Below, in pieces: positions 1 to 16,479 of a stretch of 21,982 nt of DNA (positions within the stretch are counted from its first letter, which is position 1; the number at the start of each line of letters is the position of its first letter). Made by a program: the position numbers and the translations under genes. Under the pieces are notes generated by a model. It saw only the letters and a program-made list of their open reading frames with translations, was not told the origin of the DNA and made no database searches. The DNA is from a virus, in the IMG/VR virus record IMGVR_UViG_3300025012_000974, positions 1 through 21,982 of that record. One strand, 5' to 3'.

Positions 1-1
1 C

Positions 2-466
2 ACCACCGGCGAGCCCATGGACAGGACCATGGCCAAGCTCGAAGATATTTTCGAGCCCTATGTCGGGAAGCCTGGACGCATTCGTGGTGGTGAGGTCATA
101 ACGCCTAACCGCTTGGAGACCATCATCCGTACCAATGCCACAGATGCTTTCAACATGGGCCGTATCGTTGAGGCGCGTAGGGCTGGCCCGTTCTTGCAGG
201 CGTTCCAGTACAGTGCGATCATGGATGATGCTACGACTAAAGTATGCGAGTTCTTAGATCAGAAGCTGTTCCGACCTAATGACCCCGCGCTTGATCAGCT
301 CTCGCCTCCCCGTGCATATAACTGTCGCGCGACTGTCGTGCCGGTAGGGATAGACGAGGAAATTGATGAAGATGATTTCATCGATGCCTCGGAAGTTGCC
401 AAAGGCATAGAACTCAGCCATGTGGATTTCGGCGGGGAATCCACTCGAATGTATAGCAAGGAATAA
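2..466 (+). CDS. Phage minor head / head morphogenesis protein, Mu gpF-like (3' end only)
   Basis: This is the C-terminal part of a minor capsid protein that is normally made next to the portal and acts in early procapsid assembly. The frame is open from the window edge (T-T-G-E-P before the first Met at 17), so the true start lies upstream. The visible part has the end of the Mu gpF/SPP1 gp7 domain: an 'ETIIRTNATDAFNMGR' helix, then 'YSAIMDDATTKVCEFLDQK', then 'PPRAYNCRA'. This matches the family pattern of a D-x2-T-x2-C segment followed by PP-x3-NCR, so both conserved cysteines are present. The tail after 'VVPV' is acidic. In related phages the next late genes are usually the protease/scaffold and capsid genes. 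Here eleven non-structural genes intervene. Family assignment is from these motifs only. Confidence 0.85.
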   Translation, partial: TTGEPMDRTMAKLEDIFEPYVGKPGRIRGGEVITPNRLETIIRTNATDAFNMGRIVEARRAGPFLQAFQYSAIMDDATTKVCEFLDQKLFRPNDPALDQLSPPRAYNCRATVVPVGIDEEIDEDDFIDASEVAKGIELSHVDFGGESTRMYSKE

Positions 467-503
467 GCCTGTATTAAACAAGGGCTGAGTTAGGGAGGTG
501 AGG

Positions 504-1601
504 GTGCGCTACTTGATTGCCCAAATGGTGGAGGTCTATAAGGTTGCGCAGACGAATAGCGGCAACTGCACGGTATTTGAATGTCATCCGCCGTTGAACC
601 TCCCTGACCCTGATGCTCACTTCTTTGTTGACTCCAAGGTCCCGCACGAATACAGCCTCATGCATGGCTGCGAGGATAGCTTCACTTGTGAGATCAGAGA
701 CGGCATCGTTGCCACAGTTCAAGGGCTGGTGTTCGATGACACTCACTTCTTTGTCGATGCCTATCATAATCGAAGGTTGATGGAGACCATCGTGCCCGTC
801 ATGTCTCATGTGTCAGGCATGGTGCAGGGTGAGGTCGAGGCTAACTTCGAGATCGGTTTTTCTTATGACGGTAAGCTTATCGATCTCATTTCCCCGCACA
901 CCTCTAACTACCATCACTGGGTGCTGGAGCTGCTTCCAAAGTTCTGGGCTGTGCAGCAGATGGTTGGACAGGGTGAGAAAGAGATAGCCCTGTTGCTTCC
1001 CACGCTTGAGGTTCAATTCCAGATCGATACCTTGAAGAAGATCATACACTCATTCAAGGATGTGCGATTCACCTTCGTGCCGTTCAATGCGTACCAACTT
1101 CAAGCCGTCAAAGCTAAGGAGCTGGTGTTCCCATCTTTCATCGCTCCGGGCGGGCACTCACGGCGACAGCTTGATTGGCTCCGGTCCATGTTCCTGCCGT
1201 ACAGTTCTTCTTTACAGTTACACCGGCGGATCTTCATTTCGCGCAAGGACTCACGTAACGGACGCAGGTTGCTGGAAGAGGACAGCATCGTTCGTATGTT
1301 AGAGGACTATGGCTTCGAGGCTTGGACGCTGAGTCAACTGGCGCACGCTGATCAAGTGAAGCTGTTTTCCGAGGCTGAGATCATCGTCGGCATTAGTGGC
1401 GCGGGCTTCACCAATCACATCTTCGCGCCGCATTCAGCACACCTTATAGAAATCCATCCCAAGCACTACACGAACCGAGCACACTTCTTCACGGCGAACG
1501 CTCTGGGTCAAAGCTATCAATTCATCATTGCTGATGGCGATGATACCGCTTTGAGCATAGACAGTAGTAAGTTGATAGCCGCTGTGGAGCGCGTGATTTA
1601 A
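504..1601 (+). CDS. Glycosyltransferase family 61-like protein (DUF563)
   Basis: This is a predicted sugar transferase of the GT61/DUF563 type, a family used in capsule, O-antigen and glycoprotein synthesis. Two family blocks are clear. 'NYHHWVLELLPKFWAV' lies near residue 135. A C-terminal half has 'RRIFISRKDSRNGRR', then 'LEDYGFEAWTLSQL', then 'LFSEAEIIVGISGAGFTNHI' and 'FAPHSAHLIEI'. This is the usual RR-x-Y/F-I-S-R and GxxGAxxxN(H) order. There is no signal peptide or membrane segment. Two GTG starts compete, at 498 and 504. The Shine-Dalgarno AGGGAGG at 492-498 runs into the first but sits 5 nt before the second, so 504 is preferred. It is the first gene of the modification cassette. Donor and acceptor are unknown. 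Confidence 0.8.
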   Translation: MRYLIAQMVEVYKVAQTNSGNCTVFECHPPLNLPDPDAHFFVDSKVPHEYSLMHGCEDSFTCEIRDGIVATVQGLVFDDTHFFVDAYHNRRLMETIVPVMSHVSGMVQGEVEANFEIGFSYDGKLIDLISPHTSNYHHWVLELLPKFWAVQQMVGQGEKEIALLLPTLEVQFQIDTLKKIIHSFKDVRFTFVPFNAYQLQAVKAKELVFPSFIAPGGHSRRQLDWLRSMFLPYSSSLQLHRRIFISRKDSRNGRRLLEEDSIVRMLEDYGFEAWTLSQLAHADQVKLFSEAEIIVGISGAGFTNHIFAPHSAHLIEIHPKHYTNRAHFFTANALGQSYQFIIADGDDTALSIDSSKLIAAVERVI

Positions 1602-1623
1602 CTTCCTCACAAGGAGCTTAGAA

Positions 1624-1875
1624 ATGGCAAAGATGCCTCCGAAAGATACCACTGAAAAACCTGTTTCAGAGCCGCAAGTATCCCCGACTGACGCCATTCG
1701 CAACTTTGCACGCTTGAGTGTTGATGTGCAGCGTGAGCGGAGCAAAGTGATCAACACAGCTTTCATCCGCTATGTGGATTCTAACCCGACACGGGAAGAT
1801 TTCGCAGAGGTCACTGAGGGCCTGCTTATTACGCCCGTCATGGTCTGGCATATGGCACGCGCCGGTCGTGGTTAA
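1624..1875 (+). CDS. Small protein of unknown function (83 aa)
   Basis: I do not recognise this protein. It starts at an ATG with a good ribosome binding site (AAGGAG at 1611-1616) and ends 5 nt before the aminotransferase gene, so it is placed as a genuine operon member. The N-terminal third is polar and proline-rich (residues 1-22), suggesting a flexible tail. The rest is predicted mostly helical, with 'AIRNFARLSVDVQRERSKVI' followed by 'NPTREDFAEVTEGLL'. It has no cysteine, signal peptide or membrane segment. Its place between a glycosyltransferase and an aminotransferase suggests an accessory role in the cassette. A regulator or a structural small protein cannot be excluded. Confidence 0.65.
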   Translation: MAKMPPKDTTEKPVSEPQVSPTDAIRNFARLSVDVQRERSKVINTAFIRYVDSNPTREDFAEVTEGLLITPVMVWHMARAGRG

Positions 1876-1880
1876 CAATC

Positions 1881-2969
1881 ATGAGTCGGTATTACCGGCC
1901 TGAGTTTCAGCATCTAGGCGGTATTGAGCGCATCAGAAAGCGATGGCCGTATTCATGGCAGATGCGGCTCAACCGCCTAGAAAACCCCATACCACTTTCC
2001 GATGATATGCAAGCTGCAATCAAGGACGCGGTTGGGGATTTCAATCTATACCCCGACTATCAACCGTTCTATGAACAGCTCGCGGCCTTCCTGAGCATCC
2101 CGTCTGTGAATCTGGTAGTTGGGCTCGGCTCGGAAGAGTTCATGCGGTCCATCATGCTCCTCACTTGTGGGATAGATTGTCCACAGAGGGGTGTCGCGGT
2201 ATTAAGCCCGACCTGTGCAATGTATCAGATACACGCAGCGGCATTGAATACACCACTGTTTGATCCCAGCCCAGCCTCACCAAAGATTGAGTTGACGATA
2301 GATACATTGATCAATGTTTTGGATAATCAGGATTTTGCCGTTCTGTTCCTGCCAAATCCTGGGCAGCCTATTGAGACTTATTTTACTCCTGTCGAGCTCG
2401 CTGCCATTGCTGAATACTGTTCGCAGCGGGAAGCGTTGCTCGTAGTTGATGAAGCATATTATGGCTTCGGTACTGAGACGGCACTGCCTTTGATATTCCA
2501 ATTCGATAATGTGATCGTGATGCGTACCTTTTCCAAGGGTTGGGGTGGGGCAGCATTGCGAATCGGATACGTGGTCGGATGCGAGGCGTTGATCAAGCCG
2601 CTTCATTCGTACAGGCTGTCAGGCGAAATCGCCGGTCCGTCTATGCAGATAGCCAGTGTGATGATCGACAGGTATGAGTCTGATATTCTACCTGCGATGC
2701 AAGAAATAGCTATGGCACGTGACTGGCTCTGCCGTGCAATCAGCGACCTTGGTTTATGGACACAAGGCAAGAAGGGGAACCATGTTCTGGTTGAACTCGG
2801 GGCGGATAGGGCAAAGCGGGTCGGCAGGCATCTTGAAGCTGAAGGCATCTACATCAACTATCAATTACCGCATCCCTGTGAAGACTATGCCATGATCACG
2901 GTTGGATCACTGGATATGATGGTGCGTTTCTTTGAACACTTCGTAGGAGCGCTCGATGGGAACAAGTGA
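1881..2969 (+). CDS. PLP-dependent class I/II aminotransferase, HisC-like
   Basis: This is a fold-type I pyridoxal-phosphate enzyme resembling histidinol-phosphate aminotransferases and threonine-phosphate decarboxylases. Key residues are visible in order. 'NPGQP' has N159 (the family usually has NPNNPTG). 'VVDEAYYGF' has D190, which would pair with the PLP ring nitrogen. 'RTFSKGWGGAALRIGY' has the Schiff-base lysine K219 and the phosphate-binding arginine R227. The N-terminal 'LYPDYQPFYEQLAAFL' block also matches the family. At 362 aa the length is normal and the catalytic set is intact, so the protein should be active. No histidine biosynthesis genes are nearby, so it more likely makes an amino compound for the glycan cassette (inference). 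The substrate is unknown. The next gene overlaps its 3' end by 14 nt. Confidence 0.85.
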   Translation: MSRYYRPEFQHLGGIERIRKRWPYSWQMRLNRLENPIPLSDDMQAAIKDAVGDFNLYPDYQPFYEQLAAFLSIPSVNLVVGLGSEEFMRSIMLLTCGIDCPQRGVAVLSPTCAMYQIHAAALNTPLFDPSPASPKIELTIDTLINVLDNQDFAVLFLPNPGQPIETYFTPVELAAIAEYCSQREALLVVDEAYYGFGTETALPLIFQFDNVIVMRTFSKGWGGAALRIGYVVGCEALIKPLHSYRLSGEIAGPSMQIASVMIDRYESDILPAMQEIAMARDWLCRAISDLGLWTQGKKGNHVLVELGADRAKRVGRHLEAEGIYINYQLPHPCEDYAMITVGSLDMMVRFFEHFVGALDGNK

Positions 2970-3645
2970 GTATGTGTTCAAGGAAGGCGCTGATGGTAGC
3001 CTTGAGCCGGTGTTCGATTTCAACAGGCTGTATCAAGACGTCACGGACCCCTGGGATCAATCAGGCGCCAGCTCCGCTCCCGTGATGTCAGCATATTATC
3101 GACACTCCCGACATAGACTGGCTTCTGTACTGAAACGGGTGCTGTCGGCTTATGCCGGGCCAGTGCTTGAAGTGGGTTGCGGTCATGGTCACGTTGTAGA
3201 TTACCTTTCCAAAGAGCTGCCGTACGCAACGATTGAGGGCATCGACATCAGTTCCATGGCGATCATGGGTGCGTACAAGAGATATCCACATCGTAGATTC
3301 AGGGTTTCGAATATTCTTGAGAACTATACCCATCCAAAGCAGTGCGTCGTGATCCTGAATCAAGTGCTGTGGTATATCGCGGCTCGCCTCGACGACGCTC
3401 TGAACAATTGCGCATCCAGCTTGGAAGAGAACGGCTATCTAGTCATAAGTCAAGCGTTCCTTAAATCCGGGCAACGGTATATGCCTGAGCTAGATTTCAA
3501 CGGCTTGCTTAGAAGGATGCTCGATCATAAAGAATGGCAGGTAATTGGGGTCGAGTATGATTGTGCCGGGAATTACAAGCACCATGATGGGCTTCTGGTA
3601 TTCCGACGCAAAGCTGCTGAATGCGGGGCAGTGTGCCATGAATGA
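2956..3645 (+). CDS. Class I SAM-dependent methyltransferase
   Basis: This is a Rossmann-fold methyltransferase of the Methyltransf_11/12/25 kind. The SAM-binding motif I 'VLEVGCGHG' occupies residues 70-78. The acidic ribose-binding residue is in 'IEGIDIS', and 'VVILNQVLWYI' and 'SLEENGYLVIS' fit motifs IV and VI. The start ATG at 2956 has AGGAG at 2945-2949 and overlaps the end of the aminotransferase gene by 14 nt, implying translational coupling. The C-terminal part ('YDCAGNYKHHDGLLVFRRK') closes the sheet. The acceptor could be a sugar hydroxyl, amine or carboxyl, or a lipid or protein. Context suggests glycan tailoring, but the sequence does not show it. Confidence 0.83.
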   Translation: MGTSEYVFKEGADGSLEPVFDFNRLYQDVTDPWDQSGASSAPVMSAYYRHSRHRLASVLKRVLSAYAGPVLEVGCGHGHVVDYLSKELPYATIEGIDISSMAIMGAYKRYPHRRFRVSNILENYTHPKQCVVILNQVLWYIAARLDDALNNCASSLEENGYLVISQAFLKSGQRYMPELDFNGLLRRMLDHKEWQVIGVEYDCAGNYKHHDGLLVFRRKAAECGAVCHE

Positions 3646-4492
3646 CGCTACAGATCGCAACCTGAAGCGTAAGTCAGTGTTCATTGATGATGTGCAGTTG
3701 GTTGATGGTGTCCCACTTTTCAGTTGGATCGACGTCAATGTTACAGAGCTCTGTAATCGTACATGCTCGTTCTGTCCACGCGGCGATCAGACCAAATACT
3801 CAAACCAGAACCTGAATATGTCGCTGGACCTAGCTGAACGGATAGCGCACGAGCTGTTTGATCTGGACTATGCCGGTACGGTCGTGTTCTCAGGCTTTGG
3901 TGAATCACTGCTCCATCCCAACCTTTTATCTATCATAAACAAATTCGCCGGCACAGCACGCCTTGAGCTTGTGACCAATGGAGACAGGCTCGATGAAGAA
4001 ACCATCAGGGCGCTCTACGTGGCGGGGATCGGTTTCTTTGCTGTCAGTCTCTATGACGGCCCTGAACAGTTGGATGATTTCCACGTACGCTTTGAAGAAG
4101 CGGGTGTGTCCCAAGAGTGCTACATCTTGCGTGATAGATGGCACAGTGAAGGGGACGGCTTCGGCTTGAAATTGACCAATCGTGCTGGCATGGTCAACGT
4201 AGGCAAGCAGCCGCCGGTCGATACGCACCATCCCTGTTTTTATACAGCGTATTCGTTAGCGATCGACTGGAACGGCGATGTGTTGCTATGTGTGCAGGAT
4301 TGGAACAAGCGGAAGGTGTTCGGAAATCTGTACGATCAATCACTGCTTGAAGTCTGGAAACACAATAAGGATTTAAATGGGATGCGAAATCGTTTGATCG
4401 GTGGCAAGCGGATCGATCTGCCTTGTGCCTTGTGCAACGCGGAAGGCACTGTCCACGGAGCGAATCATGCTAAGGCGTGGGGAAGGTTGTGA
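3638..4492 (+). CDS. Radical SAM enzyme with C-terminal SPASM-type domain
   Basis: This is a radical S-adenosylmethionine enzyme. Residues C39, C43 and C46 ('CNRTCSFC') form the C-x3-C-x2-C site for the SAM-binding 4Fe-4S cluster, followed by 'VVFSGFGESLLHP', the usual glycine/GE region. The C-terminal third carries 'CFYTAYSLAIDWNGDVLLC', 'GNLYDQSLLEVW' and 'LPCALC', the SPASM pattern that binds a second cluster. The ATG at 3638 overlaps the preceding stop by 8 nt. An upstream in-frame Met at 3545 would give 31 extra residues inside the methyltransferase gene and is less likely. At 284 aa it is slightly short. SPASM enzymes modify peptides, sugars or small molecules. A dehydrogenation, epimerisation or deoxygenation of a glycan is a possible but unproven role. 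Confidence 0.87.
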   Translation: MNDATDRNLKRKSVFIDDVQLVDGVPLFSWIDVNVTELCNRTCSFCPRGDQTKYSNQNLNMSLDLAERIAHELFDLDYAGTVVFSGFGESLLHPNLLSIINKFAGTARLELVTNGDRLDEETIRALYVAGIGFFAVSLYDGPEQLDDFHVRFEEAGVSQECYILRDRWHSEGDGFGLKLTNRAGMVNVGKQPPVDTHHPCFYTAYSLAIDWNGDVLLCVQDWNKRKVFGNLYDQSLLEVWKHNKDLNGMRNRLIGGKRIDLPCALCNAEGTVHGANHAKAWGRL

Positions 4493-5073
4493 TGCTAGAG
4501 GATTTAGCAAGTGGCACTGATTATGAAGTTCTGGCACGGCTTGCTAGAGGAAGATCATGTGTCTTTGAATTCGGTACATTTATTGGTGGCTCAGCAATGG
4601 CTATGCTGCCCGAAATCAAAGGGGCAAATGGCAAGCTCTATTGTATAGATCATTTTCAAGGCAACTGTGACGACCCATATACAGCCCACCCACGGCGGGA
4701 AGTTGTTGACGCACTATTAGGCCGCACTGAGCCTTACTGGCCCTGGTTGACTGTTATAATCGGCTGTACCCATGAGGCATTCAATTTTCCAGCAGGCTAT
4801 GCGGATATGTGCTTCATCGATGCTGAACACAGCTACCAGGAAGTCGTCTACGATATTCGTGCCGCGCGGCATCTAGTGCAACGCGCGGGCGGGGTCATCT
4901 GTGGACATGATTATCTCAAGCACTATGATGAGTGTGACCCAGAGTTGATGGCTAAGTATTCGGAATCGCCCGACGGCGGATATGGCGGTGTTGGCTACGG
5001 TGTGATTCGCGCTGTACATGAAGCGTTCGGTAGGCCAAACCATGAGGGAGCCGTTTGGTGGGTGATAGTTTAG
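4492..5073 (+). CDS. SAM-dependent methyltransferase, Methyltransf_24/CmcI-like (copy A)
   Basis: This is a small class I methyltransferase. Motif I is 'CVFEFGTFIGGS' at about residues 23-34. A 'CFIDAEHSYQEVVYDI' block contains D110 and H113, equivalent to the metal/SAM-site D-x2-H-x-Y segment of this family, followed by 'GGVICGHDY'. The ATG at 4492 shares one base with the preceding TGA (TGATG), so it is probably translated by re-initiation. GGGGAAGG just upstream serves as ribosome binding site. It is paralogous to the gene at 5837-6415. Both end in a 'YGVIRAV...NH...VWWV' signature, and both flank the DUF115-like gene. Related proteins methylate sugars such as rhamnose, or antibiotic intermediates. 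The substrate here is unknown. Confidence 0.8.
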   Translation: MLEDLASGTDYEVLARLARGRSCVFEFGTFIGGSAMAMLPEIKGANGKLYCIDHFQGNCDDPYTAHPRREVVDALLGRTEPYWPWLTVIIGCTHEAFNFPAGYADMCFIDAEHSYQEVVYDIRAARHLVQRAGGVICGHDYLKHYDECDPELMAKYSESPDGGYGGVGYGVIRAVHEAFGRPNHEGAVWWVIV

Positions 5074-5837
5074 GTGCGCGGCGGTTAGAGAAGTTCACGA
5101 AGTTTTTGAACGGCCGCACCGTATGCTTCCAATCGTGTGGACCGACTATCGCTACGCTTGAACGCTATGTAAATGTGATCCCTGAGGACGTTGTATGGAT
5201 CGCGCATAATGTCTATTTGCCTACCGAGCGGATTTTGGAACCGATAGGTTATAGGCTGGACCTTGTATACGTCTCAGCACAGCAATCGATAAAGTCTTAT
5301 CCTAGGTATCGTGAGTTCCTAGAGCGGCCTGATGATAATCTGTTACTGACTACGCAGGGTGGTATTGAGCAGTTCAACAGTTTTTACCCTGGTCTGGTTT
5401 CTGAATTTGCTGACAAGTTGATAATCGCTGATGTTGGCGATTCAGAAATACATAATGCTGATGCCTTTGATTTAGTTGATTTCAAGAAAGCGTCACACGT
5501 GTTCTCGTTCATATCCACATTCTTGATGCTCATCAAAGCTGGCGTTCGTGAGATAATCTGTTTTGGATTGGATGGCGGCAAGATGGCTGGATACGATAAT
5601 TGGTACTATGGCGTTTATGAAGACTATCCTGAGGGGTGGTTTCACGGGATGCCTAATGGCTATAACACCGAGATCGACTATCTGTATCGCAACTGGGATA
5701 GGCTTTTGCACGAGGCTTGTGGTCTGAAGTCGGAAGATGTCCGTATTCTAAATTGCAGTCCTCATAGTGCAATCAACTGCTTCCCCAAGATTGACTATGA
5801 GGATTTGGCCATGGTGTTTCAGAAGCAGATGTTGTGA
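5058..5837 (+). CDS. DUF115 / MptE-like or GT42-like protein
   Basis: Assignment is by pattern. The N-terminal 'SCGPTIATLERYV' resembles the G-x-GPS-L loop of DUF115/MptE-like proteins and GT42 sialyltransferases. 'IICFGLDGGKM' matches their second strand-loop. 'NTEIDYLYRNWDRLL', then 'ILNCSPHSAINCFPKIDYED', matches the closing NTD-x-L ... PxS block. Such proteins bind a nucleotide or nucleotide-sugar. GT42 members transfer sialic acid-type sugars, and bacterial DUF115 proteins such as Maf are tied to flagellin glycosylation. The loop has GPT rather than GPS. The start is GTG 5058 (or TTG 5055), with AGGGAG at 5045-5050 giving 7-nt spacing to 5058. It overlaps the upstream methyltransferase by 16 nt. 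The function is tentative, but transfer of a nonulosonic-type sugar would fit the cassette. Confidence 0.6.
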   Translation: MGDSLGARRLEKFTKFLNGRTVCFQSCGPTIATLERYVNVIPEDVVWIAHNVYLPTERILEPIGYRLDLVYVSAQQSIKSYPRYREFLERPDDNLLLTTQGGIEQFNSFYPGLVSEFADKLIIADVGDSEIHNADAFDLVDFKKASHVFSFISTFLMLIKAGVREIICFGLDGGKMAGYDNWYYGVYEDYPEGWFHGMPNGYNTEIDYLYRNWDRLLHEACGLKSEDVRILNCSPHSAINCFPKIDYEDLAMVFQKQML

Positions 5838-6415
5838 TGCTTGAATTCGAGGCTAAAGCACTTGCGTCACTGGCCGCAGGCCGTAAGTGTGCTTTGGAAC
5901 TTGGAACATTCTGCGGGGATACCGCCGCTGTGATCTTGCCAGTCCTGCATCTTGATGGTCATCTTCATACGATTGATACGTTCACGGCTGTATCTGGTGG
6001 CCCCTATACCAAGTTAGTGCCGCGCCTTGAACAAATCAAGCAATCGTTGGCAGTGTTAGAATCTTATGAAGGCCGGTTTACGTTGATGATTGGGGACTAT
6101 ACCAAGCAGGCCCCGTGCTTCGCTGATGGATTGTTTGATTTTATATTCATTGATGGCGCGCACGATTATGAATCTGTACGCCGTGACATTACATCATGGC
6201 TCCCTAAGCTGGCCTCAGGTGGCGTGTTCTGTGGCCATGACTTCGAAGATATTCCCAAGGACTTTGATTGGGATACAATCGTGGCAAACTCCTATGAAGA
6301 GCACGTGAATGTTGAAGGGGAACCTGGAAGGCACTACGGCGTGATTCGTGCTGTCACTGAGTTGTTTCCAAAGTTCAATCATAAGGATCGCGTCTGGTGG
6401 GTCGATCCTGTTTAG
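5837..6415 (+). CDS. SAM-dependent methyltransferase, Methyltransf_24/CmcI-like (copy B)
   Basis: This is the second copy of the small methyltransferase. 'KCALELGTFCGDTAA' at residues 17-31 is motif I. 'FIFIDGAHDYESVRRDI' holds D106 and H109 of the D-G-x-H-x-Y site, and 'GGVFCGHDF' follows. The C terminus 'HYGVIRAVTELFPKFNHKDR' then VWWV mirrors copy A at 4492-5073, so the two are paralogs from an old duplication with considerable divergence. The ATG at 5837 again overlaps the previous TGA by one base (TGATG), the same coupling as copy A. No strong Shine-Dalgarno is visible, in line with re-initiation. The two copies may methylate different positions of one glycan or different sugars (inference). 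Confidence 0.8.
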   Translation: MLEFEAKALASLAAGRKCALELGTFCGDTAAVILPVLHLDGHLHTIDTFTAVSGGPYTKLVPRLEQIKQSLAVLESYEGRFTLMIGDYTKQAPCFADGLFDFIFIDGAHDYESVRRDITSWLPKLASGGVFCGHDFEDIPKDFDWDTIVANSYEEHVNVEGEPGRHYGVIRAVTELFPKFNHKDRVWWVDPV

Positions 6416-6426
6416 GAAGGTAGGTA
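6411..6426 (+). promoter_or_regulatory. Shared 16-nt leader/ribosome binding site, copy 1
   Basis: The 16 nt TTTAGGAAGGTAGGTA include the stop codon of the methyltransferase gene and the Shine-Dalgarno (AGGAAGG) of the GT2 gene starting at 6430. The identical 16-mer recurs at 13479-13494 ahead of the GT4-methyltransferase-GT2 gene. Direct reading of both sites shows the identity. Regulatory meaning beyond ribosome binding is inference. Confidence 0.5.
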
Positions 6427-6429
6427 AGT

Positions 6430-7155
6430 ATGTCTAGGTCCGTTTCTGTAGTCGTGCCGTGCTTAACCGAGCACAGATGGCAAGTTGATTTGACTGAAGC
6501 TATCATTCAAGTTGCACGGCACACGACTGATGTTCCGTTCGAGCTTATCATTGCTGAAGCTGTTGGAAATTACTTCGACGGTAGATTGCCGAGGCAGCAT
6601 CTGCCGCCTGTTGACGCTGATAAGCACTTCTACAATCCAGCTAAAGGCAACGCCAACGGCGACACGAATGCGGGTATGGCGCTCTGCTCTGGCGATATCA
6701 TCGTCGTGTTGACTAATGATGTGTTCGTCAAGCCTGGATGGTTGGAAGCTATGCTGGCCTGCTTCGATCTGTTCCCTGACTGTGGCATGGCCAGCCTTGC
6801 AACGACAGATCATCAGGGCGAATCGCAGCCCGTGAATGCTATCCTTGAGGGCATCTGGTGTCCGATCTTTGCCGTGCTCAACAGACCCGAGTTCAGGTTC
6901 GATGCCGTTGAGTTCCCGTCTGAATGGGGGGATTATGACTTAGTGATGCGCGTGTACGCGGCGGGCTTTAAAGCGTATCGTAACCGTATTGTGGTCTGTA
7001 ACCACTTGGGCCGCATGACCAACGGCAATGCTATGGAGCCCGAGAAGGCGGCTAAGATAGAAGGATACAGGCAGAAGTTCCTTCAGCGTTGGGGGAACAC
7101 GCCCGTTGCCGCATCGCTCATGTTCCGCGCTTTGATTTCAGGATGGGTGATCTAA
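6430..7155 (+). CDS. Glycosyltransferase family 2 (GT-A fold)
   Basis: This is a predicted inverting GT-A glycosyltransferase. The N terminus 'SVSVVVPCLTEHRWQVDLTEAI' is the usual first strand and loop. 'PAKGNANGDTNAGMALCSGDIIVVLTNDVFV' is the conserved segment ending in the DXD-like metal site, here T-N-D (in 'LTNDVFVKPGWLEAM'). 'FPSEWGDYDLVMRVYAAGFKAY' corresponds to the ED/GDYDL acceptor-site helix. At 241 aa it is a minimal GT2 domain with no membrane segment. The start ATG has AGGAAGG 7-13 nt upstream, and the stop TAA overlaps the next ATG (TAATG). The DXD replacement by TND is common enough in GT2 proteins not to imply inactivity. Donor sugar unknown. Confidence 0.85.
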   Translation: MSRSVSVVVPCLTEHRWQVDLTEAIIQVARHTTDVPFELIIAEAVGNYFDGRLPRQHLPPVDADKHFYNPAKGNANGDTNAGMALCSGDIIVVLTNDVFVKPGWLEAMLACFDLFPDCGMASLATTDHQGESQPVNAILEGIWCPIFAVLNRPEFRFDAVEFPSEWGDYDLVMRVYAAGFKAYRNRIVVCNHLGRMTNGNAMEPEKAAKIEGYRQKFLQRWGNTPVAASLMFRALISGWVI

Positions 7156-8072
7156 TGTCAGTGCGCATGAATCTAGCTCGATGGCTCATCGCGCGCTCCG
7201 ATATTGAGGCCGCGCTGTATCTGCTCCAAACGAATAAGCCGGGACCGGATGACTGTACGAGGGATGTTGATGGTGAGCGGCGGCTTGAAACTTACATTGA
7301 GAAGTATTGGCCAGCTCTATTTGACCACGATGCTTATGGAGCGGTTTACGTGGAGGCTGGGCGGATTGAGGCAGTGGTTGATCCACTTCAAGTCTACCGC
7401 TCCGTTGAAACCAGTCAGAGATATCAACACACACTTAGTCATTTGCGGCGCGTCATTGGCGAGAACTATATGGGTAAGCGTTGGTTAGACTTCGGGTGCA
7501 ATCGAGGCATCTGGGCTGCGCACCTGTACAGTCACTTCGGTGGTGATTGGACGCTATATGATATTGATCAGATTTGTATCGATGAGGCACAGAAGATTGT
7601 GCGGCGCTTCGCTGGTGGTGGGATGGCGGATAACGCTGAATTCAGTGCGTGGCCGGTAAAGGATAAGACCTTTGATGTTATCCTAGCATTCGAGGTTCTA
7701 GAGCACGTGCTGGACCCGGTCAAAGTGATCACAGACCTTGAGGCTCAGCTTGCAGATGATGGCCTCATCTGCATCAGTGTGCCGTATGGTCCGTTCGAGT
7801 ACAGCATGTGGATGGATAGTCCAACTCGAAACCGTGAACATATACGGGAGTTCGGTTTTGAATGCCTTCTTGAAATGCTGGGTGCGCGGCAACAGCTCAA
7901 TATCCAATATGTGAATTATGGCCGAAGCCTTATTCAGCAAATGGAGCTGGGGCACTGGATAGTGTCATGGCGCAAAACCAAGAATGCTGGGCCGATAGGC
8001 AGGCTGAGCCTTGCACGAAAGACGGCTTTACGTTCTGTTCCCTTTATTGCACTTCCAGGGTTGAATAATTGA
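7155..8072 (+). CDS. Class I SAM-dependent methyltransferase, paralogous to the domain in the 992-aa fusion
   Basis: The methyltransferase core begins near residue 110 with 'RWLDFGCNRGIWAAHLYSHF'. Then come 'TLYDIDQICIDEAQKI', 'FDVILAFEVLEHVLDP' (the EVLEH motif) and 'DGLICISVPYGPFEYSMW'. The first ~100 residues are a helical region with no family I recognise. The ATG at 7155 shares a base with the preceding TAA. Longer in-frame starts at 7089 and 7143 lie inside the GT2 gene. From the EVLEH motif to its C terminus it aligns with the methyltransferase part of the protein at 13501-16479: 'SVPYGPFEY'/'TVPFGTSEY', 'REHIREF'/'RGHIWEF', and 'GPIGRLSLARK'/'KPTGRIDWDRK'. It stops where the fusion protein begins its GT2 domain. 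Target unknown. Confidence 0.83.
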   Translation: MSVRMNLARWLIARSDIEAALYLLQTNKPGPDDCTRDVDGERRLETYIEKYWPALFDHDAYGAVYVEAGRIEAVVDPLQVYRSVETSQRYQHTLSHLRRVIGENYMGKRWLDFGCNRGIWAAHLYSHFGGDWTLYDIDQICIDEAQKIVRRFAGGGMADNAEFSAWPVKDKTFDVILAFEVLEHVLDPVKVITDLEAQLADDGLICISVPYGPFEYSMWMDSPTRNREHIREFGFECLLEMLGARQQLNIQYVNYGRSLIQQMELGHWIVSWRKTKNAGPIGRLSLARKTALRSVPFIALPGLNN

Positions 8073-8084
8073 AGGAGAACCATC

Positions 8085-8270
8085 ATGTCATTCGATGAAC
8101 GTGCTGCACAGTTGGAAGCCGATGCTAGACGTATCGGTACAACGGTAGCTAATGCCGCTCAAGCATGGGTGGCGCATAAGAAGAAGCTGGCCATGAAGCG
8201 TCTAGGGTGGTTGCTGTTCGGGGTTGCGACTTTTGTTCTAGGGCTCGCACTGGGTTTGCAAATTCCGTAA
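8085..8270 (+). CDS. Small tail-anchored membrane protein (61 aa), unknown function
   Basis: This is a 61-residue protein with a polar, helical N-terminal part (residues 1-39, 'HKKKLAMKR' positive just before the membrane) and one hydrophobic segment at about 41-59 ('GWLLFGVATFVLGLALGL'). The charge pattern predicts an inner-membrane anchor with the N terminus in the cytoplasm. AAGGAGA ahead of the ATG is a good ribosome binding site. It is the last gene before the terminator region, so it ends the modification cassette. A holin is conceivable from size alone, but there is no endolysin nearby. A membrane tether for the enzymes, or a surface or exclusion factor, is equally possible. I do not recognise the family. 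Confidence 0.7.
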   Translation: MSFDERAAQLEADARRIGTTVANAAQAWVAHKKKLAMKRLGWLLFGVATFVLGLALGLQIP

Positions 8271-8437
8271 TCAAGAATTTGCAGATGGTTACTAACAGTC
8301 CGTTATCGTAAAGCTTGCTCGGTGTCTATATTCTCCGTATTTATTAAGCACGGGCTAGGGAAGGCCGTTGTCCCTCTGATGAAAGTCCATATTTACATTG
8401 CTTTCCCCAGCCTGCACTCACGAGCCCCTATTTACTT

Positions 8438-8465
8438 TCGGCTGGAACCCGCTTAAATAGCCGAA
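8438..8465 (+). other. Short inverted repeat (hairpin) upstream of the terminator
   Basis: TTCGGCT at 8438-8444 is perfectly complementary to AGCCGAA at 8459-8465, with a 14-nt loop. No T-run follows directly, so it is not a terminator by itself. It lies 12 nt before the 5' arm of the terminator stem and could form part of a larger folded leader (inference). Confidence 0.45.
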
Positions 8466-8477
8466 TTCAGTACGCGC

Positions 8478-8525
8478 AAAAACGCTAGTGATTCTCCGGG
8501 TCGGCCGGGGGTCCTAGCGTTTTTT
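8478..8525 (+). terminator. Rho-independent terminator after the modification cassette
   Basis: AAAAACGCTAG (8478-8488) pairs perfectly with CTAGCGTTTTT (8514-8524), an 11-bp stem with a 25-nt loop that has a CCGG/CCGG self-complementary core, followed by T-rich DNA. It sits 45 nt upstream of the capsid protease start. It would end or reduce transcription from the cassette unless read through. The A-tract in the 5' arm may also make it function on the opposite strand. A second copy of the 3' arm follows at 8530-8554. Confidence 0.8.
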
Positions 8526-8554
8526 ATATCCGGGGGTCCTAGCGTTTTTTATAT
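8505..8554 (+). repeat. Perfect 25-bp tandem duplication of the terminator 3' arm
   Basis: Positions 8505-8529 and 8530-8554 are identical. Each unit consists of CCGGGGGT, then CCTAGCG, a six-T run and ATAT. Both units contain the CTAGCGTTTTT arm, but only one complementary 5' arm (8478-8488) exists, so the two arms compete for it. The second unit ends 15 nt before the TTG start of the protease gene. Confidence 0.9.
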
Positions 8555-8569
8555 ATAGGGATTCGAACG

Positions 8570-10516
8570 TTGAAATTCAACGTACTGCCCGCCGTCAAAT
8601 TCGAAGCAGGAAGGTTAGAAAAGGGTAGCGTCGCCGTTCATAAGGTAACGGTCGACGGCAAGGAACAGATTCTACATGCGAAGTCGGAATTTGCCGCTGA
8701 TCCGCTCTTGACCTTTGTTTCCATATATAAGTCTAGTGAAGCTTCGAAGATCGCTTTCGGGGTTGGTGGGGAAGGTGTAGCCGGCGACGTCTTGCCAGTA
8801 GCATTGTTCTGTTGCGCGCCCACCATGCCGATGCCCGACCACACACCTATGTACGATACGGGCGAGGCTTCTTACCATGTACACAGCTTTCAGCCCATGG
8901 CTGCGTTCACCGACGTGCCCAAAGGCATGTATGAGGGCCATCGCCACCCGATCGAGCGCAATGCTGATGGCTTGATCACAGGCTTTGGTGAAGCCTCTGG
9001 ACATGCCCACCCGCTGCCGTCCTACATGGTTGAAATGGGGAAGATGTTCGCCATGATGATGCCTTCGAAGATGTCCGACACTGAGCTCCAGAAGCATATG
9101 GACGATATGCAAAAGGAGATGGACGCTCTCCGTGAGAAGATGAAAGACGCCTCCGCGGATATGAAGCCGGACATGCAAGAAGATATGGACAGCCTCAAAG
9201 AAAAGATGGCTGATGCAAAGGCAGAGATGAAAAAGCGCCCGTCGATGGCCAAAATGGCCGTCAAGAAAGATGACGATGGGGACGAAGACGAAGATGAGGA
9301 TGAAGATGAAGAGCTTTATACCATCGAGGGTGTAGAAATCTTCGCAGTCGGCAAGTGGAATGGAGACGACTACACGAAGGCTGACCTTGAAGATATGGTC
9401 GCCGCGTTTGAAGAGGTCAGCTTCCAGGTGCCGATTACTTTAGGCCATACCAATAAGGCGGGCGCACCCGCCTATGGCTGGGTCGATAGCATAAAGATGG
9501 CTGGCGACAGGCTTGTTGCCACCTTCCGTGATATTCCCAAGATTCTCTACGATGCGATCAAAGGACGCAGGTTCGATGCGGTGTCGTCAGAGATCTTCTG
9601 GAACCTAGAGCGCAACGGCAAGAAATTCCGCCGGGTGCTCAAGGCAGTAGCGGTGCTCGGGGCTGAGACGCCCGGTGTTGATCTTGCGCCGCTTCGAACA
9701 GTGGTGAACTCGGTCCTGCCTCCTTCTAATGGCTACGATCGGGTTTCGGTTTACACGATCTCAACTGAGGATTTGGATATGGATCTCAAGGAACTCCAAG
9801 AGAAAATCCGTAGTCTCCAGGTGGATCTTGAAGCTGCCAATGCAGCGAAGGCCGAGGCCGAAGCGAAGGCCAAGGACGGAAGCGCGGCGGAAGCTACCAA
9901 GCTCCAGGAGGCAACGGCCAAGGTTGCCCAGCTCCAGACGGCGCTCGATGACGCGCAGAAGCAGGTCACCAAGCTTGCTGAGGAGAAGGACAAAGAAATC
10001 ACGGCCCTGAAGGCACAGTTGACGCAGCAGGGCGCGGCGATTGCCAGTATGCAGGAATCGCAGCGGCAGAAGGACGTCAAGGCCAAGGTGGACCGCGTTC
10101 CCGTTCCCATCCTGAAGCCCTTCTTTGCAACGCTCTATGACACGGCGACTTCCGGTACTTCGCCGAAGGTAGTCAAGTTCATGGCGGCTACGAAGGATGC
10201 CAAGGAAGAGGAACTTTCGCCAGTCGCGCTGCTCGACAAGATGGTGGACTTGCTGCGGGGCGAGTCGATGAAGATGTTCCGTGAGTTCTCGCAGACAACC
10301 CCCACCATTCGCGAGGAAGGCGAAGACCCGATGGTTGCCAAGTTCGATGGCGATCCTTCAGCTGAGGTCACCAAGCGTGCGAAGGCTTACATGGCTGAGC
10401 ACAAGACCAAGGACTTCAAGGCAGCGGCTGAAGCAATTCTCGGCGCAGACGAAGAGCTGAGGGTTGCCTACGCGAATTACACTGCCGGTGCTGGTGTTCG
10501 CGGCGGCAGGCAGTAG
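8570..10516 (+). CDS. Capsid maturation protease fused to scaffold, Mu gpI-like
   Basis: This protein should cut the scaffold and capsid precursors during head maturation. Its parts in order are: residues 1-90 unknown; a histidine-rich segment at about 95-160 with 'YHVHSF', 'GHRHPI' and 'SGHAHPL'; a coiled coil at about 170-230; an acidic run at about 233-248 (D/E only plus one G); and a Mu I/prohead serine protease domain at about 250-385. The last has 'GKWNGDDYTKADLEDMVAAF', 'PITLGH' (H293) and 'FDAVSSEIFW' (S339/S340), the likely catalytic His and Ser. A second coiled coil (about 400-520) and C-terminal region form the scaffold. The start is TTG 8570, with AGGGA at 8557-8561. At 648 aa it is long for the family because of the N-terminal extension. 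It is followed by cement and capsid genes, as expected. Confidence 0.82.
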   Translation: MKFNVLPAVKFEAGRLEKGSVAVHKVTVDGKEQILHAKSEFAADPLLTFVSIYKSSEASKIAFGVGGEGVAGDVLPVALFCCAPTMPMPDHTPMYDTGEASYHVHSFQPMAAFTDVPKGMYEGHRHPIERNADGLITGFGEASGHAHPLPSYMVEMGKMFAMMMPSKMSDTELQKHMDDMQKEMDALREKMKDASADMKPDMQEDMDSLKEKMADAKAEMKKRPSMAKMAVKKDDDGDEDEDEDEDEELYTIEGVEIFAVGKWNGDDYTKADLEDMVAAFEEVSFQVPITLGHTNKAGAPAYGWVDSIKMAGDRLVATFRDIPKILYDAIKGRRFDAVSSEIFWNLERNGKKFRRVLKAVAVLGAETPGVDLAPLRTVVNSVLPPSNGYDRVSVYTISTEDLDMDLKELQEKIRSLQVDLEAANAAKAEAEAKAKDGSAAEATKLQEATAKVAQLQTALDDAQKQVTKLAEEKDKEITALKAQLTQQGAAIASMQESQRQKDVKAKVDRVPVPILKPFFATLYDTATSGTSPKVVKFMAATKDAKEEELSPVALLDKMVDLLRGESMKMFREFSQTTPTIREEGEDPMVAKFDGDPSAEVTKRAKAYMAEHKTKDFKAAAEAILGADEELRVAYANYTAGAGVRGGRQ

Positions 10517-10525
10517 GAGGTAGCA

Positions 10526-10927
10526 ATGGCTCTGTTCGGAAAAGTTGAGGCAATCACGGCTCAGGCCGCTGTTGATCTCTCTGGTAGTCAATACCTCGTC
10601 ATGCGTTATTCCGCAGCGGGTATTGTCAACGTCGCATCCAACCCTGGCGGCGGCACGCAGGAAGTTGCGGGTGTGCTGCAAAACAAGCCCACGAGCGGCC
10701 GTAACGCCTCTATTGGCATTACGGGTGAGACCAAGGCAATCGCTGGCGGCGCTATTACCGCTAACCGTTCTGTGACTACCAATAGTGCAGGCCGTTTGGC
10801 GCACGCTGCGTCAGGCGACTGGATTCTTGGTACGGCACTTGAAGCGGCTGGTGCTAACAGTGAAGTCATTCGTGTACTGCTCAGCATCCCGGCGCATCAG
10901 GCGCCGAGCTCGCTGGCGGCACTGTAA
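10526..10927 (+). CDS. Capsid cement / decoration protein (DUF2190-like)
   Basis: This is a 133-aa protein between the protease and the major capsid gene, the usual place for a head-stabilising protein. Its sequence pattern fits the phage capsid-cement group: 'EVAGVLQNKPTSGRNASIGITGETKAIAGG', then 'NRSVTTNSAGRLAHAASGDWILGTALEAA', then 'EVIRVLL'. These are alternating short beta strands rich in Gly, Ala, Thr and Val, with the typical G-x-A-L-E-A-A turn. The ribosome binding site AGGAGGT is strong, as expected for an abundant virion component. If the enzymes of this locus modify the virion, this exposed surface protein is one plausible acceptor (inference). Confidence 0.75.
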   Translation: MALFGKVEAITAQAAVDLSGSQYLVMRYSAAGIVNVASNPGGGTQEVAGVLQNKPTSGRNASIGITGETKAIAGGAITANRSVTTNSAGRLAHAASGDWILGTALEAAGANSEVIRVLLSIPAHQAPSSLAAL

Positions 10928-10941
10928 AGGAGGGCATCACA

Positions 10942-11922
10942 ATGTTTATCGGACCCAAGACTTATGCTACGGTCAGTGGACCGGATGCCCACCACGACGT
11001 TCTTTTGTCGACCCTCGCCGTGGCGGCGTTTTCCACTGGGGTTGACGGCCTCATCGGCAGCCAACTCTTCCCCTCTGTCACCGTGGGGAAACAGTCGGAT
11101 CGCTATGCCATCATCGATAAGGCAGCGTTCCTTACCATCCCGGATACGAGGCGTGCGCCTAAGACCCGCGCACGACGCGTTGAGTGGACGGCTTCGTCTG
11201 ACAAGTATTTCGCTGATAACTTTGCGCTCGCCGGCGAAATCTCTCTCGAAGACCTAGCCAATGCTGATGTCGCGTTCAATCTCCGTGGAAATACCATTAA
11301 TCTGGTGACCACGGATCTGCTTCGTGATCAAGAGCAACGCATCCTCAATCTGGTGACTTCGGCATCGAACCTTGGTTCGGGTACGCTGCTGACAGGCACC
11401 AACCGTTGGAGTGATTACGTCAACTCCGATCCGCTCGGCGATGTGACCACAGGCCACGCGTTCATTCAGCAGCAGACTGGCCTCATTGCTAATACTGCCG
11501 CTATGGACTGGAACACGTTCCAGGTCATCCGTCGTCACCCTCAGCTCCTCGATATGTACAAGTATACGGCGGGCGGTCAAATCGATGAGGCGCAGCTTGC
11601 CGCTACGTTCAAGGTCGATAGGCTGCTCATCAGCCGAGCAGTCAAAGAGAACGCTCTTGAAGGTGGTACGTCTTCAATGACCGCTCTTTTTGGCACCGGA
11701 GTCCTGTTGGCGCATATCGAACCGGCGGTCGGCCTTCAGACCCGCACCCTTGGCCTTCGGTTCAGTTGGACTCCTCCTGAGTTCCCGGCTCCGATGGCTG
11801 TCGGCACCAAGCGTGAAGAGGGGCCGGGTGAGCGCAATGTCGAGATCGTTGAGGCGGGCTATTTCCAGGATGAAAAGCTCGTGGCAACGAACCTCGGCTA
11901 CTTGATCGATACTGTCGTTTAG
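10942..11922 (+). CDS. Major capsid protein
   Basis: This 326-aa protein directly follows the protease-scaffold and cement genes and has a very strong Shine-Dalgarno (AAAGGAGGG), the position and expression signal of the major head subunit. The N-terminal 'GLIGSQLFPSVTVGKQSDRYAIIDKAAF' is the conserved start of many capsid proteins (an 'FP-x-V-x-V-x-K-x-S-x-x-Y' strand). 'NLRGNTINLVTTDLLRDQEQRILNLV' fits the long spine helix, and 'VKENALEGGTSSMTALFGTGVLLAH' and 'GYFQDEKLVATNLGYLI' the later domain. An HK97-type fold is presumed. The subfamily cannot be named without a profile search. There is no obvious long N-terminal delta domain, in agreement with the scaffold being on the separate protease gene. 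Confidence 0.85.
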   Translation: MFIGPKTYATVSGPDAHHDVLLSTLAVAAFSTGVDGLIGSQLFPSVTVGKQSDRYAIIDKAAFLTIPDTRRAPKTRARRVEWTASSDKYFADNFALAGEISLEDLANADVAFNLRGNTINLVTTDLLRDQEQRILNLVTSASNLGSGTLLTGTNRWSDYVNSDPLGDVTTGHAFIQQQTGLIANTAAMDWNTFQVIRRHPQLLDMYKYTAGGQIDEAQLAATFKVDRLLISRAVKENALEGGTSSMTALFGTGVLLAHIEPAVGLQTRTLGLRFSWTPPEFPAPMAVGTKREEGPGERNVEIVEAGYFQDEKLVATNLGYLIDTVV

Positions 11923-13500: not shown

Positions 13501-16479
13501 ATGCGCGACAAGTACACAATCATCATGGTGGTTCCTGGTATGCGCTTCCAGGGTGACACCCTTGAGACTTCCTCTCTTGGGGGAAGCGAAACCGCTGCAA
13601 TCTGCATGGCACGTGAGCTGGCCAAGCTCGGGCACTCCGTTCGCATGTTCTGTGAATGTGAGAAGCCCGGCATGTATGATGGCGTGCTGTACGTTCACAT
13701 CAGCTATGCTGAGCACGCGCTCCAGCAAATGCCCGCTGATATCGCAATCGTGCAGCGCGATCCAGGCCCGTTCAAGTCCAGCATCAACGCACGCATCAAC
13801 CTTCTCTGGTGCCATGACCTAGCTCTGGGCCGAGTTGCTGATACCTTCCGTGCCTTGTCATGGAACATTGACAGGTTCATCACGGTCAGCAACTACATGA
13901 AGACGCAGTATCGCAAGGTCTATGGTTTGCCTGATGAAACGGTCTATGCTTCACGTAATGGGATCGATCTGTTCCGTATTCCCAAGGTTGATCTGACCAA
14001 GAAGTTGCGCAAACGCCTCGTGTACTCAGCACGCCCTGAGCGTGGCCTTGATGTCATGCTCAGCAGTATCCTTCCAGCGCTCTTGGCCAAAGACCCTGAG
14101 TTTGAGCTCGCGCTCTATGGCTATAACAATCCTGTTGAGCATATGGCCGCGTTCTATGCTGGCTTGAAACAGCAGGCGGCACAGTTCGGTGATAAGGTCA
14201 GGTTCGTCGGCTATCTTCCGAAAGATGAACTCTATAAGCAATACGCTGAATCGGGCATCTATGCCTACCCGACACCTTCGCCCACGTCCCCGACTTTTAC
14301 GGAGGTTTCGTGTATATCGATCATGGAATCCCAAGCGTGCGGAATGCCGGTCGTTACGAGCGCACGCGGGGCGCTGCCTGAAACGCTTCATCCCGATGCT
14401 GGCGTGCTTATTGACGGCGACCCTTGGTCTGATGCCTACCGGGATGCCTTTACAGGGGCGGTTTTAAGGCTCGCTGGAGATGAGGAAGCTTATAACCGGG
14501 CAGCCCTAGCGGGCATGGCCCATTCAGCCAACCTGGGATGGGCTGGAGTGGCCCAGGAGTGGAGCTCCTGGTTCGATACCCTGTTCGATACGTTCAATGA
14601 CGACCCTGTGCGTCTTGCCCATCACTTTTATCAGCGCAGTGATATTGGAGCAGTGCGTGAAGTTCTTGGACGCCTTGATAATCTGGATGATGGCTCTCCG
14701 GCTGCAAACATACTTCTAAACAAGGTCCAAGACGAGTATGCATTCACCCTCGGCACCGAGCGCTATCGAAAGCACTATCTGGCAGCGGGAAAGGAAACTG
14801 ACAAACGACTGAGCTCTGTACCGCTCGAAGCTCATGCACCGATGTTCGAGAACACAGGTGAGCAACGCTTTCTGAACATCCAAGCATTCTTGGAACAGCA
14901 CCCTGAACTCCAGAACATTCTAGAATTCGGGTGCGGGCATGGTTGGTCAACGGTCTACTTCGCTAACAAGCTGGGCCGTAGCTGGACTGCCCTTGACATT
15001 GATCCAGGTGCGATCAAATGGGCCAAGACCTTCGCTGAAAAGTTTGGCCGTGGTAATGCTGAGTTCGAGTTCGTAGTCGGTGATCAGACTGCGGTGCCTG
15101 CTTCGAAAGCCCCCTATGATTGCCTGTTGATCAGTGAAGTGCTGGAGCATTGCCCCGATCCGTACGCTGTTATGGATTCGCTTGAACAGCACATCAAACC
15201 GGGTGGTAGCGTCATACTCACGGTGCCATTCGGCACGTCCGAGTATGGCACACCGAACTGGGACGGGTTCCGTGGTCATATCTGGGAGTTCGACCAGCAT
15301 GACCTGCGGGATATGTTCGGCAGCAAGCCAGACTTCGCAATGACATCTGGTGTGATCTATCCGAATTCTGTTACCGGTGATATGATCGGATACTATCTGG
15401 TCACGTACCGTGCCGATCAAAAGCCCACTGGTAGGATTGACTGGGACAGGAAGCTTCGCTTACAGCGCCCGCGTCAAACCATATCTGCGTGCATAATTGC
15501 TGGCCGTGAGGCTGAGCTGACCCTTGGCTGGTGTCTGAAATCTGTGCAACCCTACATCGATGAAATAGTCATCGCTGATACGGGCATGTCTGGAGATGCC
15601 AAGGCTATTGCTAAGAAGTACGGTGCGAAGCTGGTCAAGGGCTCTGATCCAACGGTCAGCGGTTTTGATGTGCCTCGAAACGAGGCCCTAGCGGGCTGTT
15701 CCATGGATTGGGTGCTGTGGATCGACACTGACGAGAAGCTGCTTGGCGGCATGTTCCTGCGGAAATACCTTCGCCAGTCAGTATGGCACGGCCTTTCAAT
15801 CAGGCAGCACCACTTCGCCATCGATGCTGGTTTTTCCCCTGACATGCCCGTGCGCTGTTTCCGCCGCTCGCCGTACCCATACGAAGGCGGTCTCAAAGGC
15901 AAATCGATGAAGTTCATCGGACGCATCCACGAGCACCCTGAGCTTGACTTGAATGAAGGCCCCGGCGAAGTCCTCATCCTGCCAGATGTGAACATCGCAC
16001 ATATTGGCTATCTCGATGAGAGTATCAGGCGGCAACGCTTCATTCGTAACAAGCCGCTACTTGATATGGATAGGCGAGACCATCCTACACGGCTGCTTCA
16101 GAAGCATTTTGTCATGCGTGACAATATGCTGCTAGCTCAATATCAGCTTCAGCAAAGCAACGGCAATGTGACGACTGAGGTACGGGCTTTAGCAGAGGAA
16201 GTCGTGCAGCTCTATCGCGAGCACTTTCTTGGCAAGATCAAATACACGAACATCGATAGCCTGCAATACTATACGCAAGCACTCCAGGTTCTGGGTCGTG
16301 GCATCGATGTCGTGTTCACAGTCGGTGCCAACCGGGACGGCAAGGGTGACAATCTGCACAATGGTCAGGTTCCGCAGCCCATCGTTGCACGCTTCGCTGA
16401 CTATGAAGAGGCCCGCATCGAGATCGAGTACCGTTTGAAAGAGCGCATGATGCCGCTTCAGGCACAGGAACATTGGTAA
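13501..16479 (+). CDS. Three-domain enzyme: GT4 glycosyltransferase + methyltransferase + GT2 glycosyltransferase
   Basis: This single 992-codon reading frame joins three enzymes. Residues ~1-370 are a GT-B/GT4 domain: donor loop 'SLGGSETAAICMARELAKLG' near 25-44, the 'YSARPERGLDVML' strand, and E268-x7-E276 ('EVSCISIME') followed by 'ACGMPVVTS'. Residues ~450-650 are a class I methyltransferase: 'EFGCGHG' 475-481, 'ALDIDPGAI' and 'EVLEH'. Residues ~658-870 are a GT2 domain: 'TISACIIAGREAEL', then 'DEIVIADTG', and D742-x-D744 in 'WIDTDE' as metal site. The last ~120 residues are helical. The gene sits among virion genes, between small head proteins and the connectors, with its own strong ribosome binding site. 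All key residues are intact. It probably extends and methylates a glycan (inference). Acceptor unknown. Confidence 0.88.
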   Translation: MRDKYTIIMVVPGMRFQGDTLETSSLGGSETAAICMARELAKLGHSVRMFCECEKPGMYDGVLYVHISYAEHALQQMPADIAIVQRDPGPFKSSINARINLLWCHDLALGRVADTFRALSWNIDRFITVSNYMKTQYRKVYGLPDETVYASRNGIDLFRIPKVDLTKKLRKRLVYSARPERGLDVMLSSILPALLAKDPEFELALYGYNNPVEHMAAFYAGLKQQAAQFGDKVRFVGYLPKDELYKQYAESGIYAYPTPSPTSPTFTEVSCISIMESQACGMPVVTSARGALPETLHPDAGVLIDGDPWSDAYRDAFTGAVLRLAGDEEAYNRAALAGMAHSANLGWAGVAQEWSSWFDTLFDTFNDDPVRLAHHFYQRSDIGAVREVLGRLDNLDDGSPAANILLNKVQDEYAFTLGTERYRKHYLAAGKETDKRLSSVPLEAHAPMFENTGEQRFLNIQAFLEQHPELQNILEFGCGHGWSTVYFANKLGRSWTALDIDPGAIKWAKTFAEKFGRGNAEFEFVVGDQTAVPASKAPYDCLLISEVLEHCPDPYAVMDSLEQHIKPGGSVILTVPFGTSEYGTPNWDGFRGHIWEFDQHDLRDMFGSKPDFAMTSGVIYPNSVTGDMIGYYLVTYRADQKPTGRIDWDRKLRLQRPRQTISACIIAGREAELTLGWCLKSVQPYIDEIVIADTGMSGDAKAIAKKYGAKLVKGSDPTVSGFDVPRNEALAGCSMDWVLWIDTDEKLLGGMFLRKYLRQSVWHGLSIRQHHFAIDAGFSPDMPVRCFRRSPYPYEGGLKGKSMKFIGRIHEHPELDLNEGPGEVLILPDVNIAHIGYLDESIRRQRFIRNKPLLDMDRRDHPTRLLQKHFVMRDNMLLAQYQLQQSNGNVTTEVRALAEEVVQLYREHFLGKIKYTNIDSLQYYTQALQVLGRGIDVVFTVGANRDGKGDNLHNGQVPQPIVARFADYEEARIEIEYRLKERMMPLQAQEHW

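Follow-up and report, generated by a model that had tools for sequence, protein, structure and literature searches.

The window analysed here is an entire IMG/VR record of 21,982 bp. The family scan covered + strand ORFs, so that all named ORFs lie on that strand (those of the - strand were only listed), and the protease/scaffold gene is followed by scaffold/decoration-like and major capsid genes. The head gene is separated from the protease gene by 8104 nt, and the 299 nt immediately before the protease TTG (8271-8569) hold no ORF of at least 60 aa. The features with which we are concerned are these:

17-466, + strand: head protein fragment
498-8270, + strand: accessory cassette of GT61, aminotransferase, methyltransferase, radical SAM-SPASM, GT2 and unmatched ORFs (Pfam)
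8271-8477, + strand: 207-nt stretch 5' of the hairpin, with no ORF of at least 60 aa
8478-8524, + strand, terminator-like on the - strand also: intrinsic terminator hairpin of 20 pairs, loop 8500-8504 (from energies and z scores)
8478-8488, + strand: single outer 5' arm, AAAAACGCTAG
8505-8529, + strand: copy 1 of a 25-bp unit, which comprises the T-run and the entire 3' half of the hairpin
8520-8525, + strand: first T-run
8530-8554, + strand: copy 2, identical, with an arm able to replace that of copy 1
8545-8550, + strand: second T-run
8557-8561, + strand: probable Shine-Dalgarno sequence of the protease gene, AGGGA (from sequence and inference)
8570-10516, + strand: head maturation protease/scaffold gene with TTG start (PHROG 976, E 1.2e-21; PHROG 3894, E 1.2e-17)

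The preliminary description of this site had taken the downstream gene for a capsid protease and had put the second T-run close to its start. Both points hold: the ORF matches two head maturation protease families, PHROGs 976 and 3894, and its TTG, at 8570, lies 19 nt after 8550. The protein extends for about 226 residues (8570-9250) on the N-terminal side of its PHROG 976 match, with the motifs GHRH and GHAH. The TTG start lies within a perfect inverted repeat, ACGTTGAA-A-TTCAACGT (8567-8583); the repeat may be an operator, or chance, there being 3 inverted repeats of this kind (arms of 8, spacer 0-3) in the window vs 1.05 in shuffled sequence.

A strong predicted terminator with its 3' half in duplicate

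The hairpin is larger than first described, since its stem extends inward beyond the outer 11-nt arm to make 20 pairs, and a stable stem followed by a T-run, the mark of an intrinsic terminator, is present. A terminator scan gave it -26.9 kcal/mol on the + strand and -20.4 on the -, making it two-sided; it is the strongest hairpin in the window and the sole strong non-coding terminator there, the remaining hairpins being weaker and inside ORFs except for one weak overlapping call within the duplication (the scan demands TTTTT, and weaker tails escape it). Folding of 8478-8529 yielded a z of -4.6, none of 200 shuffles being equally stable, and the excess shrank with larger flanks, to z -3.3 for 79 nt (0/200 shuffles) and -2.4 for 111 nt (5/200). 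A simpler scan caught only a 5-pair fragment of the hairpin, and over 1-11500 found 5 sites vs 9.5 in shuffles.

The arms are where the preliminary description placed them, AAAAACGCTAG at 8478-8488 and CTAGCGTTTTTT at both 8514-8525 and 8539-8550, and the 25-bp tandem duplication is perfect as claimed, 8505-8529 being identical to 8530-8554. Identity at period 25 covers exactly 25 bp: the bases at 8504 and 8529 are unlike, as are those at 8530 and 8555, so that the duplication junction is without microhomology. The unit begins exactly at the 3' edge of the loop, with the first paired base, and runs through the T-run. Beyond it, TRF extends the period-25 repeat to 8571 at 75% matches. A degenerate third copy over the ribosome-binding site and start is conceivable but is left aside here: it has 11 of 25 matches, a score equalled or beaten at 577 of 21,957 window positions. 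Its first 17 bases taken alone have 10 matches, equalled at just 54 positions, and a third copy is not needed to account for the site.

A count of perfect tandem duplications (unit length 15-150 bp) gave six in 121 dereplicated loci of this virus and its relatives (1,136,528 bp, window included), the present one alone being non-coding, and three in stretches of cultured phages (8 records, 365,613 bp), all of them coding. Among 30 distinct non-coding terminators from the two sets an exactly duplicated arm occurs once, that is, in none of the 29 besides the window's. Two exact patterns for the site each had no match in viral_contigs, and the 299-nt stretch 8271-8569 had none among phages and plasmids. 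Titles and abstract openings in the literature disclosed no terminator whose 3' arm is repeated in tandem, which falls short of proving absence.

The duplication is known from one contig only. Two further contigs of the same virus, 99.96 and 100% identical to the window over the 7923 and 7798 bases compared, end at window positions 9997 and 10122, both inside the protease gene and short of the duplication.

Terminators near capsid genes of related phages

Relatives were gathered by capsid and by protease, in searches of which two were limited to the best 80 of 91 and the best 80 of 148, and by one genome scan (3 loci); the 164 pooled loci were dereplicated to 121, window included. ORFs were called mechanically, and some starts may be wrong. 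A terminator was deemed strong at -18 kcal/mol or lower, and counted if it ended no more than 75 nt before a start. Such a terminator precedes 4 of 97 protease genes (those of the window, L072, L127 and L110) vs 3 of 881 other ORFs in the collected loci (P 0.0025); with the window left out the figure is 3 of 96 (P 0.015). The claim that a terminator stands ahead of the capsid protease is backed by its sequence, by its energy and by the fact that several other phages have terminators here too. The other 93 of the 97 protease genes have none, including those of L026, L006 and L029, which bear accessory genes. The L017 hairpin (-28.5) was set aside as a pre-protease terminator: it lies inside a called ORF whose start is uncertain.

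The three non-protease cases all precede a gene of about 990 aa, encoding a glycosyltransferase-methyltransferase, which is located after the capsid gene:

L054, 6978-7001: strong terminator just 5' of the glycosyltransferase-methyltransferase gene
L042, before 4469: the same
L007, 1651-1690: the same

In these loci the gene is 29-31% identical to the window's 13501-16479, and relatives of it are found in 74 of the 121 loci, window included.

Position relative to the head gene also bears on the matter. In 41 of 119 distinct protease loci the head or portal gene lies at most 400 nt upstream of the protease, and none of these 41 has a terminator of -14 kcal/mol or lower in the 400 nt before the protease. 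The gap is larger in 29 loci, of which the window and L134 have a terminator ending within 100 nt of the protease, and L076 and L080 have one farther off; the remaining 49, among them L072, L110, L127 and L017, have no head match in the stretch examined. The L072 head gene was found farther out, and only a handful of cases are available to set against the 41 adjacent loci.

The four pre-protease hairpins (window, L072, L127, L110) share at most 6 consecutive bases: they are sporadic, without shared sequence. The layout of L072 comes close to that of the window, with a head gene, an accessory region of about 7 kb that holds two ORFs resembling the window's GT2, a terminator, GAGGGA and ATG. The ORFs nearest upstream of its terminator are on the - strand, and the sole upstream ORF called in L110, in 392 nt of sequence, is likewise on the opposite strand. 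In L127 a 4.5-copy tandem array of period 8 (1600-1636) overlaps the 5' arm of the terminator, a weak parallel to the window duplication. Arm repeats are thus present in two of the four pre-protease terminators, which hints at something beyond pure chance; terminators that overlap an array number 3 of 30, all of them pre-protease (window, L127 and, at its edge only, L134), in a comparison that is post hoc and small.

Insertions between head protein and protease genes occur also in L072, L026, L006 and L029, with differing contents, and mark this place as an insertion hot spot. In L177, a fused portal/Mu F-like ORF (366-3902) carries an intein-like insertion (PF14890, E 6.4e-8, below the curated cut-off) that interrupts the head protein match.

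Pairing of the two 3' arms

It had been proposed that either arm can close the stem. At equilibrium this is so for a 79-nt RNA, predicted at -27.6 kcal/mol with the first arm paired and -30.3 with the second, which is favoured by 2.7; transcripts reaching 8596 or beyond, on the other hand, are predicted to return to the first arm in their best structure. Structures predicted for growing transcripts that start at 8460 have the first arm fully paired once it is made, and the second taking over only when complete, at 8551. Pairing with copy 2 gains partners for just two loop bases (8500-8501), so the toehold for exchange is close to zero. The heuristic barrier to exchange of the first arm for the second is 11.7 kcal/mol, and rearrangement while the polymerase covers 25 nt comes to 0.02-7% for assumed prefactors of 1e5-1e7 per s and elongation at 20-80 nt/s, a rough estimate given that the path is heuristic and the prefactors are assumed. 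The further proposal, of two termination points or a switch, is not supported by these calculations: synthesis of the first arm runs 25 nt ahead of the second, its pairing is full, and little would rearrange in time. Cotranscriptional strand exchange is described in riboswitches (PMC9756952), and for this reason we go no further than to call a two-arm switch unlikely.

An effect of the duplication on access to the protease ribosome-binding site was considered too. The 111-nt fold predicts an outer stem between 8462-8468 and the neighbourhood of AGGGA, and in transcripts that begin at 8440-8478 AGGGA has a mean unpaired probability of 0.40-0.49 for one copy vs 0.23-0.46 for two, up to about halved; it is, however, unchanged (0.20-0.21 either way) for transcripts from 8271 or 8380, and in one case it moves the other way, from 0.42 to 0.46. 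Masking of the site was rejected as an explanation, with predicted access at most about halved, and in some transcripts only.

Interpretation

The reading that we favour, and hold to be somewhat better than an even bet, is that the hairpin is an ordinary two-sided intrinsic terminator which separates a moron-like accessory cassette from the operon for protease, decoration and capsid, and that the second arm is a recent duplication, at most a backup stop and not a timed switch. Transcripts from the cassette side would mostly halt at the first T-run, and the second arm would serve, if at all, polymerases whose first hairpin did not form. The capsid genes would then be reached by read-through, by an antiterminated late polymerase or from an unrecognised promoter upstream of the hairpin; any promoter of their own would have to lie there, since the 19 nt from second T-run to TTG are too short to hold one. 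That terminators recur at the protease in a few relatives, and in none of the 41 loci with adjacent head or portal genes, supports the boundary reading, as does the similar layout of L072, and the stop signal probably is such a boundary. Against it count the 93 of 97 protease genes that lack a strong terminator, the opposite-strand ORFs upstream in L072 and L110, and the failure of any promoter in 8271-8478 to beat shuffles, which leaves this reading without an account of protease expression. A setting of the cassette:capsid transcript ratio, as proposed in the preliminary description, is possible through leakiness of the boundary terminator. Termination at E. coli tR2 is reported to be nearly abolished several bp behind a gene and to rise with distance (PMC4824070); a similar hindrance is not to be expected here because the distance is 207 nt.

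The same arrangement could be read as a leader attenuator, with a late promoter in 8271-8477 and a leader hairpin that acts as a constitutive stop until overridden late by an antitermination factor or complex, much as Q-dependent antitermination overrides the lambda tR' stop late in infection. The short distance from T-run to TTG and the 207-nt ORF-less stretch ahead of the hairpin speak for it, as do L072 and L110, which have the same spacing of hairpin, ribosome-binding site and start and whose opposite-strand upstream ORFs suit an attenuator or insulator as well as they suit a cassette end. We nevertheless judge it unlikely. No promoter in 8271-8478 rose above shuffled sequence, 77% of 300 shuffles being as good; hairpins at this place share almost no sequence; and neither a known RNA family nor an antiterminator structure, by which a leader attenuator or riboswitch would be recognised, was found, there being no Rfam match in the window at gathering or in 8071-8700 at E up to 5, and no antiterminator in the folds inspected (starting at 8460).

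Other accounts give the duplication itself a part. As a functional device, the duplicate arm would add a second place to terminate, or would tune capsid output as a slow switch. In its favour, each pairing is stable, the unit spans exactly the complete 3' half plus a second T-run, strand exchange during transcription has its precedent in riboswitches (PMC9756952) and the L127 terminator in this position has repeats in its 5' arm. Yet the order of synthesis and the near-zero toehold favour the first arm, exchange in time reaches about 7% at most under the assumed rates, longer transcripts revert to the first arm and no other terminator examined has an exactly duplicated arm, and we find such a device improbable. 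That pre-protease terminators are contingency elements, whose arm repeats (the window's 3' half, the period-8 array in L127's 5' arm) grow and shrink, their copy number tuning transcription from accessory to capsid genes, we hold to be very improbable. There is hardly any likelihood, given the mixed predictions above, of a translational effect through the ribosome-binding site. Nor is it at all likely that the duplication is an assembly artefact of the metagenomic contig: only a single contig spans the site, both others ending downstream in the protease gene, but a 25-bp repeat is shorter than usual reads and than many assembly k-mers and is normally resolved.

To return to the favoured reading, the second arm is most likely a recent and near-neutral duplication, with perhaps a slight gain in termination. 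Its perfect identity and the lack of other copies fit a recent event, and the extra copy looks like a chance one. The preliminary description offered recent origin or active selection; the former is plausible, and the latter is without evidence, since no second copy of the site was found. Template switching or slippage at the hairpin may have produced the duplication of its 3' half. For two archaeal DNA polymerases, slippage on a hairpin template has been reported in vitro (PMC4134008); template switching, or end-joining, would be the better fit here because microhomology is absent.

The duplicated arm alone is a minor matter. The wider pattern is the more useful result: in this phage group, most of it uncultured, strong terminators that have no sequence in common are found repeatedly right ahead of the capsid protease gene and of the glycosyltransferase-methyltransferase gene that comes after the capsid gene. 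It suggests that the capsid genes are bounded by transcriptional borders, and it allows a simple read-through test. A natural terminator that offers its single 5' arm two 3' partners would also show cleanly whether the hairpin formed first always prevails.

Comparison with known systems

Morons are described as accessory genes inserted in phage operons and equipped, as a rule, with transcription signals of their own (PMC2920897, PMC2629481). The window cassette resembles them in that it consists of extra genes between genes that adjoin in relatives (the 41 of 119 protease loci noted above) and, judged by sequence, in having a terminator of its own. It is like the ant moron of the P22 group, as described in PMC2629481, in being a set of variable accessory genes between morphogenetic genes; it is unlike that moron in lying between head protein and protease, in having no identified promoter of its own and in a GC content that differs only slightly (0.506 against 0.535). 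A simple consensus scan for promoters on both strands of 1-11500 gave 10 sites vs 11.1 expected. The ant moron is believed to affect the level of tailspike by the frequency with which late polymerase passes it (PMC2629481), and passage of late polymerase could have a comparable influence here, on the capsid genes.

Leader attenuators, among which PMC2965389 includes the rimP leader with its tandem terminators, share with the window site a terminator placed just before the ribosome-binding site of a gene. The site differs from those described there in that no antiterminator or sensor structure was found in it, and in that it has a single 5' arm for both 3' arms and not two complete hairpins. 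With intrinsic (Rho-independent) terminators in general it has in common a GC-containing stem, an A-tract/T-run and a T-rich tail; it departs from them in carrying two tandem copies of its 3' half and T-run and in lying 19 nt from the following start codon.
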